NCBI RefSeq assembly: GCF_036785885.1
Contig: NC_092323.1
Span: forward strand, 3,202,501-3,266,500
Direction of reading: 5' to 3'
DNA length: 64,000 nt
Source: Coffea arabica
Taxonomy: Eukaryota > Streptophyta > Magnoliopsida > Gentianales > Rubiaceae
Shown: positions 8,040-64,000 of the stretch, one piece after another
Layout of the letters: each line of letters opens with the position of its first letter
How positions within the stretch are numbered: position 1 is the first letter of the stretch
The notes under the pieces: model-generated
Seen by the model: the letters and a program-made list of their open reading frames with translations, nothing else
Told to the model about the DNA's origin: nothing
Databases searched by the model: none
Position numbers and translations under genes: made by a program

Positions 8040-10432
8040 TCTATATCTATATAGATTTGAGAAGAGATTTTTAGCAACAAACCTTCCCACTCTCAACTCT
8101 ATTTTTTTTATCATTTTACATTTAATTTATTTCGTAAAAAATATCATGGGCACATCACACCCCCACGTTTCCCTCAAACAATAAGTTAACTCCAACTAAC
8201 ACTCCCACATTTTCCTCAAACAAGAAGTTAATTCCAACTAACACTCCTTACACACCTTACTTCAACTAACACTCCTCACACACCTTCCCACTACAATTAA
8301 AACTCTTCCAATCAAAAATTTCACTTACATTAAAACTCTTCCAATTCCATCATAAGATTGCGCAAAATCTATTTCCACTTCATGTTGGTATCCTTATTAG
8401 CCCTCAAATTCAATTTCACTCCACACACACCTTCCCAGTACAATTAAAACCCTTCCAATCAAGAATTTGCGAATTTGCCAACGCCATATATTGTCGTTTC
8501 TACTATTCCAATGCCATAACCAATTCCCACTACCAATTCCATTTTTCTAGCATTTCACATTTAATTTAATTTATAAAATATATTCCTCTCAACTTCCACA
8601 TCCACTCTTCACATTTGAAATTGTTGGTTAATGTGCATGCTATCTTATTTGAACTTCAACCCATCACGTTTCCGATTGCCTTGCGTTATTTATGATTCTA
8701 CAACAATTAAAACTTCTATAAGACCATAAGAAGAGATAACAAATATAACATTCTTTCATGCTTTCTTATTAATTTAAATAAGTAAGATTATTTACACTCC
8801 ATTTTTGTTATTCACACTTCAATAATCATTTTGATCATATAATTTTCATTAATTAGACTATATGATAAAACAAATGATGGAATTGCAAATAATAAAAAAT
8901 CGAGTGCAAATAATATTTTCTTAAGTAAAAAGTGGCCCCCATGCCTTTCTAATTTAAAAAATTAGTGGCTCCGCTTATATGGGAATTTGGTTTGAAGTTT
9001 ATTAGTGAGAGGGTAAATAAAAAGAAAACATTGCCAAACTTAGTAAAAGTAAAAAAATAACTGATAATATTTTATCTTTAAGCTTAGAAATCCTAAGTAA
9101 AAGGGCAAAATTAAATAGAAAACAAAAAGGAAATAATGTCGTGGATTTAAAAAAAAATCAAGAATGGTACCATTCATGAAATTCAAATTATGAAATCACT
9201 AAATAAAAAACAAAGTACTACTAGCCTTTTAACGTGGAAATTTTTTTTTTTGAAATATTCATTTTTTGATAAAAAAAAAATGATAATAACAACGCCAATT
9301 CTACCAAATTTTTTTAAAAAAGTAATATTATAGTTTAAGAAAAAGATATAGAACATTCAACCTTAAAATACTACTTAATTTGTATATATCTGGCCCAAAT
9401 TTGACATTAGAATTGAATAAGAGTGCAAAACCCAAACACTAAAGATAACTTTTGGTATCATTAATTATTTTATGTATTCTTATTGCTGTCTTCATATGTA
9501 AATATGTATTTACTATGTTAAAATATATATATAGATACATTGATTATAGTACTTGAGAATATTATAGATATTATCAGTTTTTCATTTCCACTTTTAGATA
9601 CTAATAATTGCAACCATTGTAATTAATTTTCAATTTTATATTTTCATTATGATACGTAAACTAAAATATATTGGGTTGTAGGGATATGAATTTAGAGGTT
9701 AGGTATAGGGGAAGAAGGGAAGGAAGAAAATGGTGAGGCGTTAAAAAGTAGCAGGAAAGGTTGAAGAAGAAATATGAGTTACAAGGATGGGCGGAGAAGG
9801 TAAAGAAGAAGAAAGGGGATTACAGGAATATGACAGAAATGACAAAAAAATAATAATAATTGGGAGGATAGTACTATGATAAAAGATATGAAAGTCGTAG
9901 GAGGCATCTGATGACTAACTGGCGTATAAAAGAAGAGGGAAATGATGGTGATTTTTAATAATTTTGAGAACTCTAAAAACACATATTACGAAATTTTTTT
10001 TTTTAAATATACGTTAAAATTTATGAAAAATGCTAATCTAAATGCAATCAACAATTTTAGGGGCACAAGATAGGAGAAAGATTTTTTTTCTAAAAATGGA
10101 AGAAAATAAATTGGTTATAATTTATTTTTTTATATTATAAGTTTTGATATATGGGTATAACATAATATTTTTGTCGGATATTAATAAATTGATTTTTTTT
10201 TAGAAAACTCTTTTCACATTACTACCCAACCTAACCCTCTCATTTAATGCGTTAACAATTCTTTTATCATGTAAATCATTATAGATTAATTTTTTTAAAT
10301 ATTAAGCATACACTTCTTTAAAATTTTTAGTCTATATATATTTTTATTATTTTGTACCACAATATTTAAATATATAAAATATTATTCTGATTTAAAATAT
10401 AACTCCGTGCTATGCACGGGTCAAAATACCAG
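8040..10432 (+). mobile_element. Non-autonomous Helitron (about 2.4 kb)
   Basis: The left end begins TC (tctatatctatatagatttg) directly after an A. The right end carries a GC-rich hairpin (ccgtgctatgcacgg) about 10 bases before ccag and a following T. Helitrons insert between A and T without target duplication, start with TC and end in CTRR after such a hairpin; here the last motif is ccag, one change from ctag. No Rep/helicase frame is visible. The interior is AT-rich, with a purine-rich stretch at 9700-9990 that could be captured sequence, but I recognise no gene in it. Confidence 0.7.
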
Positions 10433-53856: not shown

Positions 53857-53946
53857 ATCGAAATCATCTGATGAGAAGAAAACTGCAACAATATGAAACT
53901 TTAAAGTCCATGATTCGTTTGTATTTAAGTCTCTGATGATTTCGAT
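53857..53946 (+). ncRNA. Box C/D snoRNA, predicted guide for 18S rRNA
   Basis: A perfect 12-bp terminal stem (atcgaaatcatc / gatgatttcgat) brings together box C (ctgatga, 53868-53874) and box D (ctga, 53933-53936), which are 58 bases apart. Inside, aactgcaacaa (53881-53891) precedes a D'-like atga and can pair over 11 bases, plus a G-U, with 18S rRNA at TTGTTGCAGTT, just upstream of AAAAAGCTCGTAG. The five-base rule points to a U there, which by my count from memory is near plant 18S U615. A C'-like box (catgatt) lies at about 53909-53915. Box C begins with C instead of a purine. It shares the transcript with the U18-like snoRNA downstream. Confidence 0.7.
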
Positions 53947-54055
53947 ATCTCTAACGGAGAGATTGTACCTTTTTCCCCTTTTTTAAAACAGTTTTGTGAA
54001 TCTAATGTTATCCCATTTATTTCCTTTGTCTTTGTTGTTTTGTAAAACTGGGGAA

Positions 54056-54134
54056 GGGGAGATGATGATACTCTTATATGGTCCGTGTTTCTGAATTTTC
54101 TGTGATTGAGAAACACAAGCACTCTCTGATCCCC
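54056..54134 (+). ncRNA. U18: Box C/D snoRNA U18 homologue, 25S rRNA guide
   Basis: All parts of a C/D snoRNA are visible in 79 bases: terminal stem gggga (54056-54060) with tcccc (54130-54134), box C atgatga (54062-54068), box D' ctga (54091-54094), box C' gtgattg (54102-54108) and box D ctga (54126-54129). The sequence before D' (tggtccgtgttt) pairs over 12 bases with the conserved 25S/28S segment AAACACGGACCA, exactly as the U18 snoRNA of animals and yeast does. It therefore directs 2'-O-methylation of the adenosine in that segment, with fibrillarin, in the nucleolus. The guide before box D (acaagcactct) has no target I recognise. Confidence 0.85.
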
Positions 54135-55214
54135 TGTGCCTTTAGCTCTCGCGCACTTTTTTTCTTCTTTTTTTAATTATTCTGGTTCCCCTTTTTCTTT
54201 TCTTATTTGTTTTTTTCTGAAATTTGTGGTAATTGGCATGGGAAATTGATTGTTGTCTGGGCTCTGTGATTACGATGCCTAATTAATTACAGTAGTTAGG
54301 CACTATACGCTATTCTGATCTTAAAACATGAGTAGATATGTTTTGTGTATGAGAGCTTTTACCATGTGTTTTCGTTTTAGCTGAATATTCCTAGGTTAGG
54401 TGGAATCGATGTGGTTCTGCCTAATTGATTTTCAGAAACCAATCAAGCATTTGTTGTTTTGGCTTTTGTTTCTATAGCAATTCTGCTCCTGCTGCGAAAC
54501 ATCTGCTATGATGATACATGAAAAAATTCACATGTCAGACTTCAGAGATTTCGGTCTATGAGAAGAATATTTCATGTTTTCTGAGCTGACGAGTTGTTGA
54601 TTCAGATTGGTGCTTAGCTGTTGGTGTCAACGTCTACCGCTGTGGTAGAAATTGATCACTGATTTGATGAGATATACAGAAATTTTACTGCCTTTGGTGT
54701 GACGTAGGAACTGAGATAACGAGACCTTCAATTGTATTTTCTTCTTCTTCTGCACATCCGTTAAAAAACAACCCATTTAATTTAGATGTGATTTGTTTAC
54801 TGAAGTAATGTATTTAAAACACATCCCACAAAATGAACCGAACCTGTCTGTATTCAGAATGACTGGGTGCTTCATCTTTTGAGGATCTGGAGGCAAAATT
54901 GGATACAGGGAATACAATTTTCATTTTTGTTGGTTTGGGCTGTCTTGAAACTTTTTATTATTGGACAGAACTTTAAAACCTTTAACTCGCCAAGCTGGAC
55001 AACAGCAGTCCATTCCTTCACCGGGAAGTGAAAAAATTAGCAGTTCAGTGTTTTGTTATTCAAAAAAGGTATACTTCAATGGAGAAAGTAATGCACGGAA
55101 GGATGAGTAATAATTGTAAATTAAGCTCAAGAGAGTGACGATGCTGTAAAAAAATGAGTTAGAGGAAGTATTTGTCATGTGATGCATTTAACTCGTTCCC
55201 CATTTTTTTTTCCT
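54135..55214. other. Downstream part of the snoRNA transcript or intergenic
   Basis: Unique sequence. A hairpin (tgcctaa / ttaggca, about 54274-54307) is visible. Two further C- and D-like box pairs near 54508 and 54664 lack terminal stems and were not accepted. No protein frame was seen. Confidence 0.4.
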
Positions 55215-55658
55215 TCGTTGAATGTACATTTAAACTCGTTCCTCATTTTTTTCCTCCTCCTCTTTTGATAATTGGTTGTGTTCTATATATATAGAGCAAG
55301 GGTGTGTTTGATAAAATTCAAATCCAAAAATTGAAACTAATCTAATAGATCATTTAATTTTGGAAGTAAGTTTTGCCTAGAAAATTCAGTATTATTTAAT
55401 TAATTTAAATGTTCAATTTGGATTGAATTAGGTTATCAAAGAGAGTCTAAATGCATGACACATATATAAAATTTGAATTTTAAATTTAAATTCAAATTAT
55501 GTGTTGTGCATGCAATGGTAAAAATGTATACACTATCCGTGTATATAAAATTAATCTATATATATATATATAGGAATTTTTTGCGTCTATAGAATATATC
55601 CTTTTTATTAAGGTCACGATGTCTATGCATTATTTACAAATAATTGTTGCTCTAAAAT

Positions 55659-55725
55659 CTATATCTATATAGATTTGAGAAGGGTTTTTAGCAACAAGCT
55701 TCCACACACTTTCCCACTCTCAATT
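55659..55725 (+). mobile_element. Truncated Helitron 5' end
   Basis: After aaaa the sequence reads tctatatctatatagatttg and continues agaag..tttttagcaacaa, matching the left end of the Helitron at 8040 for about 60 bases. It then passes into another array unit. No Helitron 3' hairpin was found downstream in the window. Confidence 0.6.
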
Positions 55726-56698
55726 AAACTCGTTCCCCATTTTTTTCCTCTCTCTTTTGATAATTGGTTGTGTTATATATATATAGAGTAAGGGTGTGTT
55801 TGATAAAACTGAAATTTGAAAATTGAAATTAATCTAATACATCACTTAATTTTGAAAGTAAATTTTGTCTAAAAAATTTAGTGTCACTTAATTAATTTAA
55901 ATGTTTAATTTTTGACTGAACTAGTTTATCAAATAGAACCTAAATGCATGACACATGTATGAAATTTAAATTTAGATTATGTGTTGTGCATTCAATGGTG
56001 AAAGTATATATATTGTTAGTGTATATATATATAATTAATCCATATATATATATATATAGGAATTTTCTGCGTCCAAAGAATATGTCCCTTTTATTAAGGT
56101 CACGATGTCTATGCATTATTTACAAATAATTGTTCCTCTAAAATACTTTGAAAATTACAGAATAGGCCATGTTACATCGACTTGAATTGGAAAACAAGAG
56201 ACGAGTCATCTTACCGAGCTAGATCAACGTACCTATTCAACCTCTAAAAGCAAACAAGTGCCAATTACATCTTAGAAAATCAAGACCGTTTGAATTATTC
56301 TTTTTGTCGACCTGGATTTGACCAAATTTTAATAAGTTTTTAGTAACATTTTAGAAACTTTCAAACACTTAACATCCCACCATAATGAGGCAAAACAGAC
56401 AACATATTCAAAATCTAATTTTTCAAATATAATTTTACAATAATATATAAATAAAAATAATTTTAAAAACACCAATCCATTTAAAATCAACTCACAGATA
56501 CAAAAAAAAAAAAAATTAACCACTTCTTCTTCCATCACACATCACTACCCATTGATGGCGACCATCTCTCTTTCTCTCCATACTAGAAACCCTCTCACTC
56601 TTCTCCTCCATTTCCATTTGTGACTAGCTTCTTGTTGTTATCAGATGACTGGGTTGCGATCAGAGGGCCGCAACACCTCGAAAAACAGGTAATCCATG

Positions 56699-56851
56699 AG
56701 TTTGTTTGGATTGCAAGATTTTCAAATAAAAATTTCAAAATTTGTTTTGCTTGCATCATACACACAATTTTCAACCACCTTTTTATTTAATATATATTAT
56801 ATCATAAAAAGTGCTACAGTATTATTTCAAATAATTTCCTATCCAAACAAA
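56699..56851. mobile_element. MITE inserted in the array's second unit
   Basis: Ends gtttgtttggattgcaag and, as the complement of the right side, ggtttgtttggataggaa. The sister unit at about 57965 lacks this segment. Confidence 0.6.
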
Positions 56852-56999
56852 CCCCGTATTATTGCGATCAGATTAAATTTTGTTTCGAAAATTCAGTGCC
56901 ATTTTATTACTTTAGATGTTCAATTTTTTGTTATCAAACGGTTTGAATCATTAATTCATTAAATTTAAATGCTGAAGTGGGTTATCAAACAAGCTTGGT

Positions 57000-57163
57000 T
57001 TGTTTGGATTGAGCATTATTTCTCCAATTTTATTTGGTTACATCATCATTACAATTTTCAATACACCTTTTTATCTTCCCTATTACCTTTTTATCTCACA
57101 TACATCACATCACAAAAAGTGTTACAATAGAAATATCCCAAATAACTTACAATCCAAACAAAT
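57000..57163. mobile_element. Second MITE inserted in the same unit
   Basis: Ends tttgtttggattgagcatta and, as the complement of the right side, atttgtttggattgtaagtt. The sister unit reads straight from atcaaacagg into gtctaaatgc, which shows the insertion. Confidence 0.6.
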
Positions 57164-58925
57164 CTAAATGCACGACACATATACAAATTTTGAATTTCAA
57201 TTTTAAACTCAAATTATATTTGAAATTCAAAATTTGTGTCATGCATCCAATGATGAAAGTGTATATACTGTCAATGTATATAAAATTAATCTCTCTATGT
57301 ATATATATTTGAATTTTCTGCATCTATAGAATATGTCATTCTTATTATGGTCACGATGTCTATGCATTATTTACGAATAATTGTTCCTCTAAAATACTTT
57401 GAAAATTACAGAATAGGGCACATTACATCGACTTGAATTGGAAAACAAGAGACTACTCATCTTACGGAACTTGATCAACGTACCTATTCAACCTCTAAAA
57501 GCGAACAAGTGCCAATTACATCTTAGAAAATCAAGACCTTTTGAATCAGCTTTTTTGTTGACCTAGACTTGACCAAATTTTAATAAGTAAGTTTTTAGTA
57601 ATATTTTAGAAACTTTCAAACACTTAACATCCCACCATAATGAGGCAAAACAGATAACATATTCAAAATCTAATTTTTCAAATATAATATTATAATAATA
57701 TATAAATAAAAATAATTCCAAAAACATCAATCCATACAAAATCAACTCACAAATACCCAAAAAAAAAAAAATTACCACTACTTCTTCCATCACATAACAC
57801 CACCCACTATCACCACCACCACGGCCACCATCTCTCTCTCTCTCTCCTTCCTCCTCCATACTAGAAACCCTCTCACTCTTCTCCTCCAATTCCGGTCGTG
57901 ACTAGCTTCTTGTTGTTATCAGATGACTGGGTTGCAATCAGAGGGCCGCAACACTCCTAAAAACAAGTAATCTATACTTTTGCAATTAGAGTAAGTTTTG
58001 TTTAGAAAATTCAGTGTCACTTTATTAATTCAAACGTTCAATTTTTAGTTATCAAACGGTTTGAATCCATTATTTCATTAAAATTAAGTGTTGAACTGGG
58101 TTATCAAACAGGGTCTAAATGCACGACACATATACAAATTGTGAATTCAAATTATGAAATTCAAAATTTATGTCATGCATCCAATGATAAAAGTGTATAT
58201 ACTCCTAATGTATATAAAATTAATCTATATATATAGGAATTTTTTGCATATAGAGAATATGTCCTTTTTATTAAGGTCACGATGGCTATGCATTATTTAT
58301 GAATAATTGTTCCTCTAAAATACTTTGAAAATTACAGAATAGGCCATGTTACATCGACTTGAATTGGAAAACAAGAGGCTAGTCATCTTACCGATCTAGA
58401 TCAACGTACCTATTCAACCTCTAAAAGCGAACAAGTGCCAATTACATCTTAGAAAATCAAGACCGTTGGAATTATTCTTTTTGTCGACCTAGATTTGACC
58501 AAATTTTAATAAGTAAGTTTTTAGTGACATTTTAGAAACTTTCAAACACTTAACATCCCACCATAATGAGGCAAAACAGATAACATATTCCAAATATGAT
58601 TTTTCAAATATAATTTTACAATAATATATAAATAAAAATAATTTCAAAAACACTAATCCATACAAAATCAACTCACAAAAACAAAAAAAAATAAAATAAA
58701 ATTTACCACTTCTTCTTCCATCACACATCACTACCCATTGCCGCTACTGTCACAACCACCATCTCTCTCTTTCTCTTGGTTTTCCTCTCTCCCCATCCTT
58801 CCTCCATTCTAGAAACCCCGTCCCTCTTCTCCTCGGCTTCCGATCATGACTAGCTCCTGGTTATTATCAATGACTAGTTGCGATCAGAGGGCCGCAACAT
58901 CTCAAAAACAGCTAATCCATACTAA

Positions 58926-59745
58926 TTTTTCTAGTCTACTAATATGCAAGATTTGACATATTCAAATGGAACAAAATTTCGAGACGGAAGCTTGAATGAT
59001 TCAGGAGTTGGGGTCAACGGTTGACCGACTGTGGAGGAAGTCAAATCAAAACTGAATTCATTCACATTAGTATTATAATCCGGACCCGCCACTTTAGTTG
59101 TTAAGCTCCAACTCGAACCAACTATTATAGCTGGTCTCGGATCAGACGCAGATTCTACGTACTGCTTCTGACGTGAACAATGATCCACTTGCCAATTACA
59201 AAGTTCACCCGTCATTGCTGTCCGTGACCCGGGGCTTGGTCTCCCCGCTCATGTGCTTCTTCCCTAATTGGAGTATTTTTTATCTTTTCACACGTGGCAA
59301 ATCATACACATATAGAACACGTGCATTAAAATTTAAAGGTCCTGCGCTAATCGCACGCCACTTCAGCAGCTTCCTTTCAAGGGAACTCAGTCTCGTGGGT
59401 TAGATTAGACCCCTACAGTTTAGAACAAAGTTGAATGCATTGCACTTTGTCATACGTCGTCCTAGTCCCGGCATCGTATGGTAAAAAAAATATATATATA
59501 TATATATTTTGTAGGTGTGAATCGCCAAGCCCAGCATTGAACAACTTTGAGCATGCGGACTCCATGGCCAAAACGGTCAAATCACCTTCACCTTCGGCTC
59601 TCACTCAAATTCCACCGCGGAAAAGAGAGACGATTACGTATGGACAATTTACCAGTCTTAACATGCCGTTGACGGTTTTCGCTTTCGATCCCCACTCTTT
59701 TTCGGGGGATCATATATACATTTTTTTAAAAAAACTTTTTAACCC
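58926..59745. other. Upstream region of the first miRNA gene
   Basis: Unique DNA with an (AT)n run near 59490-59507. A 94-codon minus-strand frame at 58931-59215 has no recognisable motif and was not called. Confidence 0.4.
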
Positions 59746-59752
59746 TATAAAT
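59746..59752 (+). promoter_or_regulatory. TATA box of the first miR3627-like gene
   Basis: The sequence tataaat lies about 130 bases before the hairpin, predicting a start near 59776. This is a normal distance for plant MIR genes. Confidence 0.45.
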
Positions 59753-59874
59753 GTGGGCAGACTGAATGTGAATGGGCATCCAATTGAACAAAGGGTAATA
59801 AGCATACTTAAGGAGGAGTTGTGGGAGTCTTCTTTTCTTAATACACTAGCAGCAAATTAAGAGAATAAGAAGCT

Positions 59875-59980
59875 GTGGGAGTCTTCTTGTCGCAGGAGAT
59901 ATGGCACTTGTGCTCTTTGGGGGCTCGGCTCTGCCACATTCACACAAGTGCCATTCACCGCGACAAGAAGGCCGCAATTT
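59875..59980 (+). ncRNA. MIR3627: miR3627-like microRNA precursor, locus 1
   Basis: A hairpin pairs cttcttgtcgc with gcgacaagaag (11 bp) and atggcacttgtg with cacaagtgccat (12 bp), with a small internal loop between them and a 33-base terminal loop. The 5' arm carries TTGTCGCAGGAGATATGGCA (59887-59906, mature end about 59908), which matches miR3627 of grape and apple as I remember it except for one or two bases near the middle. miR3627 belongs with miR391, miR4376 and miR5225, whose known targets are type IIB calcium pumps of the ACA10 group. The miRNA* would be at about 59945-59967. The pairing meets the usual plant criteria of few mismatches in the duplex. Confidence 0.82.
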
Positions 59981-62900
59981 CTTTAAACTCCAGCCCAGCC
60001 ACTTGCTTCCTGCTTCGTCGATCGCTTCTAATTGTCTACATGGTTCCTTCCAGTTCCAGTTCCAGTTCCAGTTCCAGGTGAATGAATATTTATAGGCAAT
60101 GTCCAGTGTCTTTACCAGTTAAATACATGCTTCTTCTGCATTTCAGATTTCATGCGCGCGATCATATTCATATTCATATGTAGTCTTTTAGATGGATGGG
60201 ATCGATGCATGCATTCTTCGAGGTAAGCACGTGAAGAGACTTTAATTATGTCAATCCAATTCTGAGTTTTTATCCTTTTTTTCTTGAAATGCATGATTAC
60301 ATTTACATCGTACAATTTACATGTCACGTTTCGGATTTACGAGTACGAAAGAAAGGTATTTTTTTGCGAGTTCAAGAATTTGTTTGGCTTTTCCTTTAGA
60401 GCCAGTAATCATCATAATTTTAACTGGCTGTGTAAGAACTAGAAGGATTTATCCACCGCTCTTCTGAGTCTTCCCGCTCCAACTCCATCGCTCCCGCTAG
60501 AACTTGCAGCAACGCCCGGAACTGCGACGTATTGCTCATCAAGACAAGCATGAAAGAAAGGTATGTGCCATTTATTTTATCTCAATTTCTGTTGATAAAA
60601 GTAACATGGATGGATGGATGGTAACGAGGTTAATGATCCTCATGCTACCATGCACGAACCCATAGCCCCTATGCTTCCAAAATCTGATTTAGTCATCGGG
60701 ATCTGCCAGCCATAGCTTGAATTCATGTATTGAATCAATCATAATTCTGCAGCCCCAAAAATTCTTCGTCCTTTTACTCCCATTACCATGCATCTATGCG
60801 CTATTATTTGTCTATGTCAAAATCAAAATTTCCGGTCAAGCGCGGTTGTCCGACAATCAGTGCGCACGTATTGGCCGTTCTTGCCTTGCCTGGAAGTTCG
60901 CTTGGTGGCTCAAGGAGTCCCGTCCTGATGCCCACCACTTCCATTTCACCGCTCTTTCTCTTTCCTCTTTGCAGATGATTTCAAGAAAATTACATAGAAA
61001 GAACTAAATAAAAATCTAACTTAATTTCTTTGCAGATGATTTTAAAAATTACATAGGAAAAATTAAATAAAAATCTAACTTATGACTAATACGGCAATAA
61101 CACAAGAATCCCAAAAGAATTAATTGAAAAAAAAAAAAAAGAGTTCATATCCATTTCTAACCTTGCTGACATTCACGTTAAATCTCCAAAATGCAGAAAA
61201 CTGAAAAAGTACTAAAACATCTTGACAAACGATTCGAAGCCACTGGAGACCCAGTTTAACAGTATCGGATCTAGGCTCCGCCTCAGACGTTTTTCTCAAG
61301 CCGTTCCTCATTATACAGACTAATCAGCCTTCAGTTTCTTGACTTCTTCATGTTTTCTCCCTTCTGTGCAACCTATAATTTCCCCAAGTCCTTGGAAGTT
61401 CCAAGCTTGCTCCGCTATTGAGCATCATAACATACAAGATTGGCCTTTGAGTGTGAGTTTTCCAACGGATGATGATATATTTCTCGACCCTTTTTGAGTC
61501 TTTAACGAGGCTGGAGTTGAGCAAGAATACCCGCAAGAGTTAAGTCTGATGGGTCCAGTGCACTACTTTTCAAAATTATGACCGGCTCTAAAGGACAATA
61601 TCTGCTGTTTAGGCAAAATGAGCTTTGGAAATCAAATGATAACAGCTGTACAGCATCAGAGCTTCATCTGCTATAGTATTACGGTCTCAACAAGTGACGT
61701 GGGACGACATATGATGGCGCCACGGCTGCTGGAATAAGAAAGGGGCCAGCTGCTGTGTCTCATGCAATGATTGTGCAGGTGACAGCGAAGTAATTCTTAC
61801 TTTTACCATAAACAAAGTGCAACTCGAATGGTTACTGAAAAACAGTTGCTGACTGACCTAGGTACTACCTGGTCGACGCGGTGGCATTCAAGAAGCTGAA
61901 ACCTCTCACAATCGCTTCGCTCAGTCTCACCGTATTCAGGAGAAAATGGAATCTTACAAATTTTTTTTCTTTTCAGAAGTAGCAATGACGGTTTTACTGT
62001 CCAGGTCCAGAGAACCGCAGCCATATGCAAGAAATTCCCTTCCAGCTGACTCCCTGCTTTCCAGCTTCACCCAAGGAGTTAGTCTAAAGAAAATTGCTAG
62101 TCTCTTCCAAGATTACCGAATGACTCGAGGCGGCTAGTTATATGGAACAAAATCGAACGTCATCTGGCTAGTTATATACAACAAAATTGAACACCATGTT
62201 GCTTTTTATGGTCTGCTTGTTTTGATGAGCAGGCAACCGCAATGAAACGAAATGTTGTGATATTTTGAGAAGCAGCAGCAGATGTATAGACATATCTTTC
62301 GTACAACCAATCTTCACGAGGGAAAGGAAGAACCATGACATTTAGTGTATAAAAAAAAAAAAGAAAAAAAAGGAGACTTGCGCTGTAGCATGGAGTGCTT
62401 ACGATTAGCGGCAACGTATGATGAATAATGATATTCATTTAGTAAAAAGGAGAAATAAAATTCATATAGAAAAGACGTGTATTCACATTCCTTTATAAGG
62501 GAGTTAACGCCGAATCACTATTGATAAAGCAGCTTGGAGTAATGGGCGCTATTCCCTAATTATTGGCTGCAAAATGAAAAGCAAATTCTAATGCTGTGCT
62601 TACCAAAAAAAAAAAAAAAAAAAAAACCTAGGTCGTACCACGTATTTGCTGCAAGAAGACGTGACATGCGTATTTATTTATTCATTCCTTTTCTTCCAAT
62701 GAAGAGAAAGGCAGTTTGCATATTACAACGCCTTTTCATTAATTAGACTTCTTTAGCAACACGACTTTCACTTCAAAATCAAGAAACTCTCAAGAAGTTG
62801 TACCGAAGTAACGTGAAATCGGGTCAAAAAAGCAACGACTTTCAAGCAATGATACAAATAATAATGGTTAGCGGACGGTATACAAGTGGAATTCGCAATT

Positions 62901-63158
62901 CCAGAAGTTCATTCAAATTTGTGGAATGAAGACTCCCTACCGTGCACCTTCTAGATAGTCAATTGTTCTCTTTCGAAACAAAGTCTACAATTTGTGGAAA
63001 TAACAGGAATTTTGAAGAGTCTGTGTGTGTCATAATGAAGTATTGTTAAAAGGTTGCTTTCCACAGAACGAGAGAAGAAAGAGACTAAGACCACTTTTTC
63101 TACAATTTTTTGTTTTCTTTTGGGAACAAAAACGACCAACAGCATTGGGAGTTGGATC
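59981..63158. other. Intergenic between the two miRNA loci
   Basis: May include the spliced remainder of the first primary miRNA transcript. A (TTCCAG)n hexamer run lies at 60047-60077. A 60-bp unit starting ctttgcagatgattt is repeated at about 60967-61024 and 61027-61083 with a few differences. Poly-A runs lie near 61128 and 62605-62627. No protein gene was recognised; the short frames lack motifs and codon structure. Confidence 0.45.
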
Positions 63159-63165
63159 TATAAGT
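63159..63165 (+). promoter_or_regulatory. TATA-like box of the second miR3627-like gene
   Basis: The sequence tataagt lies about 60 bases before the hairpin base. Position and sequence fit a MIR gene promoter. Confidence 0.4.
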
Positions 63166-63221
63166 ACCGGGAGGGAGGAGAGTAGCTGGATTGAATTTGA
63201 AGCAGCGCAAAAGCCCGCAGG

Positions 63222-63362
63222 AGTTGGGGGACTCGTGTCGCAGGAGGAATGGCACCTGCTGTGGTTACAACATAGTGATAGTACTCTATGTACTTAGTCA
63301 GTAGCAAGTAGTAATATGGATATGCAAGAGCCATTGCTCCTGCGACACAATGCCCTACAACT
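63222..63362 (+). ncRNA. miR3627/miR391-superfamily precursor, locus 2
   Basis: A 141-base fold pairs agttggggg..tcgtgtcgcaggag with ctcctgcgacacaa..gccctacaact. The 5' arm has TGTCGCAGGAGGAATGGCAC (63236-63255) and the 3' arm GAGCCATTGCTCCTGCGACA (63328-63347). The two arms pair with about two mismatches over 20 bases, so the duplex is near perfect. The mature sequence is related to locus 1 (TGTCGCAGGAG then ATGGCAC) but differs in the middle, so its targets could differ. The terminal loop is about 70 bases. Confidence 0.82.
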
Positions 63363-64000
63363 TCTTTCCTGCTCCCCTTATTTCACTGATTCCATACTCG
63401 TTTGCAACATTCTTGCCAAAATTCTGGTATAATTCCTGATCGCCTAACTATATTTTGGCGTCTTTGGGTTGTGGTATCACGTCCATTCAAGCCTACCAGC
63501 TACATACCAGCTAAGTTAGATCTGGAGGCGAGAATTGGGGTAATTAACTATCATCAATTTTGTTAATTGCTTAACCCAAGAAGTTGGGGTGGTAGAAACT
63601 AGTAGTTAACCATCAATCATATGCCCACCGGCCGTCGCTCCCAATCAGCTCATACAACCTTTGACCGATTTATCCCGGCGCAGCCCACCATAGTCCATTA
63701 GAATAGTAAAGGGGTTTTATTTACATGGGCCTCACAAGTTAGGCGTCTGAGTCCTACTCTTTTTTTTTTACCCTAATTTGAATGGCAGGGTCCACGTTGG
63801 AGAAGGATCAATGCAATAGACATCGAAGTCGCCATTGGAGACATTCGATATGCAGACCTGTCCACGCCAATCAATGATGGTGGTATGGCCCGAATTGTCT
63901 ACTTGTTTCCCTTTCTTTTTATTTTTCCAAATCGATGCCAAGCCAGAAATCAGTCTGCCAAACTGGCATGTTGCAACAGTTTGTCAAAAGAAATTGTCCT
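63363..64000. other. 3' flank of second miRNA locus to window end
   Basis: No gene, RNA or repeat was recognised in these bases. Confidence 0.4.

Follow-up and report, generated by a model that had tools for sequence, protein, structure and literature searches.

The window, i.e. the whole stretch of 64,000 nt that was analysed, is plant-like with 37% GC. Its open reading frames include those of an LRR receptor kinase, a MYB protein, an acyltransferase, a protein kinase and a thaumatin-family protein, and matches to C/D snoRNAs were also obtained. Two hairpins in it, designated H1 and H2, are candidate miR3627-type MIR loci. Both mature sequences listed below were predicted from the core motif, the predicted duplex and comparison with published matures.

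59745..59751, + strand: TATA-like CTATAAA, putative promoter element of H1, 142 nt upstream
59869..59990, + strand: H1, MIR3627-like precursor hairpin
59887..59908, + strand: predicted H1 mature 5p, TTGTCGCAGGAGATATGGCACT, 22 nt
59949..59968, + strand: predicted H1 star on the 3' arm, 20 nt; the mature strand opposite has two single-base bulges
60087..60095, - strand: CTATAAATA, possible antisense promoter of H1, a full box about 127 nt from the far arm of H1
63158..63164, + strand: TATA-like CTATAAG, putative promoter element of H2, 78 nt upstream
63212..63365, + strand favoured: H2, MIR3627/MIR5225-like precursor hairpin with a long loop
63236..63257, + strand: predicted H2 mature 5p, TGTCGCAGGAGGAATGGCACCT, 22 nt
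63328..63349, + strand: predicted H2 star on the 3' arm, 22 nt, its reverse complement also miR3627-like

A run of C/D snoRNA matches at 53861-54591 (+), with snoZ199 and snoR64 above and SNORD18 and U54 just below the gathering score, is probably a plant snoRNA cluster; tRNAs were not found in the window. The region 55227-58923, which adjoins the hairpin pair, contains direct repeats of 0.13-0.84 kb in several copies, 79-86% identical, with short open reading frames for similar peptides; the one scanned (57566-57901, -) gave no Pfam match. Between the hairpins, at 60966-61082, lies a tandem duplicate of about 58 bp with 90% identity. A protein-coding explanation of the locus was dropped, as the Pfam scan of two open reading frames near the hairpins (59435-59857 on the + strand and 58934-59248 on the - strand) gave no match.

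Core motif and folds of the two hairpins

The motif TGTCGCAGGAG..ATGGCAC occurs exactly twice in the 64,000-nt window, once in each hairpin. The pattern TGTCGCAGGAGNNATGGCAC was matched exactly on the + strand at 59888-59907 (H1) and 63236-63255 (H2), with a spacing of 3,348 nt. A third match, with one mismatch, at 63328-63347 on the - strand is H2's own other arm, and with as many as three mismatches allowed the window contained no further copies. At this tolerance shuffled sequence gave a mean of 0.02 matches, and none of 100 shuffles contained three or more. The sequence-only reading, which had placed a shared core ending in ATGGCAC on both 5' arms, was thus confirmed in this point. UUGUCGC, the first seven bases of the H1 mature, also opens the grape, cassava, trifoliate orange and cotton sequences as printed; the start of the H2 mature, in which the U before UGUCGC is absent, is that printed for poplar Ptc-miRn32. 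Two features of MIR3627 members were found in both hairpins, namely a mature on the 5' arm of the form UGUCGCAGGAG...GGCAC and a stable hairpin with few mismatches between mature and star (three unpaired mature positions per predicted duplex).

Minimum free energies were -56.5 kcal/mol for H1, vs -34.0 +/- 3.3 in shuffles (z -6.7), and -65.4 kcal/mol for H2, vs -44.1 +/- 3.8 (z -5.6). In neither case was an energy as low reached by any of 200 shuffles, so that the two long, well-paired hairpins for which folding had been proposed are present. Both are nearly self-complementary. In a z-score scan of 3,194 positions of a sliding frame, the 220 of lowest energy for their GC content were scored with 40 shuffles each; among the ranked loci the best H2 segment (- strand) was second and H1 sixth, tied at z -5.2. 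A lax filter for stability plus duplex was passed by 78 merged loci across the window, and the argument that hairpins are rare here was therefore dropped. Structure alone is not special in this window; what stands out is the family motif together with the hairpin. The hairpin with the lowest z-score of the scan (z -7.8, 20% GC) lies at 8761-8920 on the - strand and may be a small inverted-repeat transposon.

Family assignment, strand and putative promoters

A permissive Rfam search of 59700-63600 yielded six matches at E<=5, all of them to two families: MIR3627 was matched by either strand of each hairpin, MIR5225 by either strand of H2. The MIR3627 model (RF03600, gathering score 64, not reached) gave 26.9 bits (+) and 30.4 bits (-) for H1 and 35.8 bits (+) and 36.6 bits (-) for H2, the - strand scoring slightly above the + strand in both. 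For MIR5225 (RF03517, gathering score 72, not reached), H2 scored 34.3 bits (+) and 26.1 bits (-), and H1 had no match at E<=5. At the Rfam gathering cut-offs no miRNA was matched in the whole window. E values in the whole-window search were 0.11 (+) and 0.0098 (-) for H1 and 2.4e-4 (+) for H2; with 0.11 on the + strand, Rfam by itself is insufficient for H1. MIR3627 is the best Rfam family for each hairpin, and as the scores stay below gathering, the loci are labelled miR3627-type and not formal Rfam members.

The predicted matures were compared over 20 positions with nine published relatives, seven miR3627-type and two miR5225/4376-like. Some of these are printed as 'novel' in their source papers and were assigned to the family in this analysis. 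They are not independent, since they comprise six distinct cores (cassava, trifoliate orange and castor are the same, and the two cotton entries are identical over 20 nt). H1 and H2 each agree with the seven miR3627-type sequences at 17-18 of 20 positions. Where they have AUGGCAC, the two miR5225/4376-like matures, as printed, have AUGAUGC or AUGAUAC. Of the original description as two miR3627-type MIR genes, the candidate status holds by mature sequence, hairpins and best Rfam family, but the gathering score is not reached. Judged by sequence, H1 and H2 are supported as candidate miR3627-type MIR loci and are a sound annotation lead.

Both hairpins had been placed on the same strand. This is firm for H1, which is read on the + strand because 16-18 of 20 positions agree with the nine relatives there, vs 8-9 on the - strand. 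H2 is a near-palindrome with 15-18 agreeing positions on either strand; the strands tie for seven of the nine relatives, and the + strand is ahead by one position for two. Compared with the H1 mature, H2 agrees at 18 of 20 positions on the + strand and 17 on the - strand, and its fold energy is -65.4 kcal/mol (+) vs -61.0 (-). H2 was assigned to the + strand on account of its TATA-like box, its more stable fold and the slightly better match to H1. The + strand is favoured here rather than proven, and the - strand agrees with the family to about the same degree.

The TATA-like boxes that each hairpin was said to possess lie at plausible distances upstream, at 59745 and 63158. Of random + positions, 2.3% have CTATAA[AG] in the interval 30-150 nt upstream; because a laxer TATA pattern precedes 15.8% of them, each + box is weak evidence. 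On the - strand, CTATAAATA faces H1 and mirrors its + box, which makes bidirectional transcription of H1 possible. A box like it precedes 0.34% of random - positions at 30-150 nt, a figure uncorrected for the several boxes that had been looked at. Around H2 (62700-63950), the TATA patterns used had no match on the - strand.

Relation of the two copies

H1 and H2 were aligned segment by segment, with 500 shuffles each. No shuffle reached the score of the 5' (mature) arms (36, with 22 of 26 bases identical) or of the 3' (star) arms (26). The lower 5' stem was borderline (29 of 500), and homology was not significant on the promoter side (55), in the loop (190) and in the downstream flank (350). 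A gapped alignment of 59868-60016 with 63219-63392 reached overall significance (4 of 500 shuffles), for which the arms account. Of the 45 positions compared in a gapless juxtaposition of the 5' arms, 28 are paired in both copies; 20 of these carry no change, 2 a change on one side and 6 a change on each side. Pairing is confined to one copy at 15 positions and absent from both at 2. This covariation count is weak, since it depends on a gap-free alignment and each copy's own fold, and a third of the positions (15 of 45) are paired in a single copy.

As only the arms align beyond chance, we infer that a duplication would be old. An old tandem duplication, with both copies retained for the miRNA, is the best explanation of the sequences, with adjacency as the main argument and the shared core in addition. 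Local duplication followed by divergence, as initially suggested, thus stands as the best account of the arms, but the loop, promoter side and downstream flank are without significant homology. No tandem MIR3627 pair was reported among the literature matches listed (titles and beginnings of abstracts), and six core and star strings of H1 and H2 had no match in the main texts of papers. Linkage within the miR3627 group has a precedent at larger distance: the Amur grape table (PMC3353164) gives va-miR011 at 14:17492727 and va-miR041 at 14:17809215, 316 kb apart if these entries are read, as here, as chromosome:position. By sequence, va-miR011 was assigned here to miR3627 and va-miR041 to the miR5225/4376 branch.

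In all, H1 and H2 are probably a pair of MIR genes from the miR3627/miR5225/miR4376 group that arose by an old local duplication; each would have its own promoter and give a 5'-arm miRNA, with Ca2+-ATPases as likely targets. An explanation that we regard as rather unlikely is that H1 alone functions as a miR3627 gene (+ strand), H2 being a decaying copy, lying on the opposite strand or belonging to the miR5225/miR4376 branch. The tie of the H2 strands for seven of nine published matures, the MIR5225 score on the + strand close to that of MIR3627 (34.3 and 35.8 bits), the - strand position of the most stable H2 segment in the scan, the missing U before UGUCGC, the long loop and the symmetric duplex would all fit it. 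Yet on the + strand H2 has the core motif without mismatch, the AUGGCAC end, a TATA-like box (none being found on the - strand in 62700-63950 with the patterns used) and the more stable fold (-65.4 vs -61.0 kcal/mol), and its intact stem is unexpected for a decaying copy. The opposite-strand and miR5225/miR4376-branch variants overlap the explanation by two MIR genes, so that the probabilities expressed here do not add up to certainty.

The 3.3 kb spacing and the shared orientation, if H2 is on the + strand, make tandem duplication simpler than a rearrangement that brought together two older family members. The latter is improbable to us, even though the loop, promoter side and downstream flank lack significant homology and relatives on the same chromosome may be separated by hundreds of kb, as in the Amur grape table (PMC3353164). 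Very improbable is an origin of H1 and H2 as inverted duplications of transposon or target-gene fragments that produce siRNAs and not miRNAs. Such an origin would agree with the numerous hairpins in the window (78 loci) and the direct repeats adjoining the pair at 55.2-58.9 kb, but hardly with a family core that recurs at the corresponding place on the arms of two hairpins whose loops are unrelated, with significant similarity confined to the arms, or with the absence of further core copies when up to three mismatches were allowed across the window.

Predicted products, targets and related systems

On the preferred reading of H1 and H2 as a pair of MIR genes, RNA polymerase II would probably transcribe each from its own TATA promoter, and DCL1 would process each precursor to a 5'-arm miRNA beginning with (U)UGUCGCAGGAG. 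In the predicted fold of H1, mature bases 8, 11 and 14 and one star base are unpaired; read as two single-base bulges and one mismatch, these make the duplex asymmetric (22/20). The predicted H2 duplex is symmetric (22/22), the ends being predicted from the folds in both cases. Phased siRNAs are known to be triggered by 22-nt miRNAs or bulged duplexes, and the asymmetric H1 duplex is as expected for a 22-nt phasiRNA-triggering miRNA. With its 22-nt mature and 20-nt star, H1 would be predicted to trigger secondary phased siRNAs; the symmetric H2 duplex may yield a 21- or 22-nt product, and triggering may be weaker or absent. The printed star is one nucleotide shorter than the mature (21 vs 22 nt) in trifoliate orange Novel38 and two cotton entries, and miR4376 is reported to trigger phased siRNAs on ACA10 (PMC5902766).

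If duplex symmetry really differs between H1 and H2, they offer a natural comparison to show whether 22-nt phasiRNA triggering is decided by duplex asymmetry. A division of labour between the tandem copies may be imagined, although we hold it to be improbable: H1 would be the asymmetric, 22-nt, phasiRNA-triggering copy, perhaps with convergent TATA promoters that drive transcription of either strand, and H2 a symmetric, non-triggering source of 21/22-nt products. One miRNA core would then be delivered in a triggering and a non-triggering form by adjacent genes.

Plant miRNAs are recognised by precise mature and star small-RNA reads with 2-nt 3' overhangs. Reads from both strands would be no clean argument against MIR genes here, because H1 and H2 are nearly self-complementary and grape vvi-MIR3627 is described as not stranded, with abundant antisense transcripts and phased small RNAs (PMC6404619).

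By analogy with related miRNAs, transcripts of autoinhibited Ca2+-ATPases (ACA8/ACA10) would be the most likely targets. Reported targets are ACA10 in cassava (PMC4730657), ACA8 in Malus, listed there for miR3627 as well as miR5225 (PMC4523022), and Ca2+-ATPase10 in grape, in the 5'UTR intron region (PMC6404619). An amino acid transporter in apple (PMC3446319) and an AT-hook protein in Malus (PMC4523022) are also listed for miR3627, and 415 targets are predicted in peach (PMC5712094). The idea of a target in cis was dropped, as an ungapped scan of the window found no target-like site at score <=6 except the hairpins themselves. With H1 and H2, a miRNA group for which action on Ca2+-ATPase genes has been described in several plants gains two further candidate loci.

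The known system closest to the pair is MIR3627 (RF03600; grape, cassava, trifoliate orange, cotton, castor, poplar), whose printed 5'-arm mature UGUCGCAGGAGNNNNGGCRC is matched by H1 and H2. As in MIR3627, H1 also begins with UU at the 5' end, and its mature is predicted to exceed the star in length; H2 differs by its long loop, its symmetric predicted duplex and the lack of U at the usual first position. Both differ from MIR3627 in Rfam scores under the gathering cut-off and in occurring as two copies 3.3 kb apart. MIR5225/miR4376 (RF03517) has the same core; the two matures compared, as printed, end in GAUGAUGC or GAUGAUAC, whereas H1 and H2 read AUGGCAC as in miR3627. miR5225 is described as evolutionarily related to miR3627 and miR4376, with Ca2+-ATPase10 as a common target (PMC6404619). 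The wider miR390-miR4376-miR7122 superfamily (Xia et al. 2013, cited in PMC5902766) holds the miR4376-like miRNAs, and its 22-nt members are reported to trigger phasiRNAs. It differs in that, instead of Ca2+-ATPase, TAS3 is the route of miR390 action and PPR genes are the targets of miR7122 (PMC5902766).
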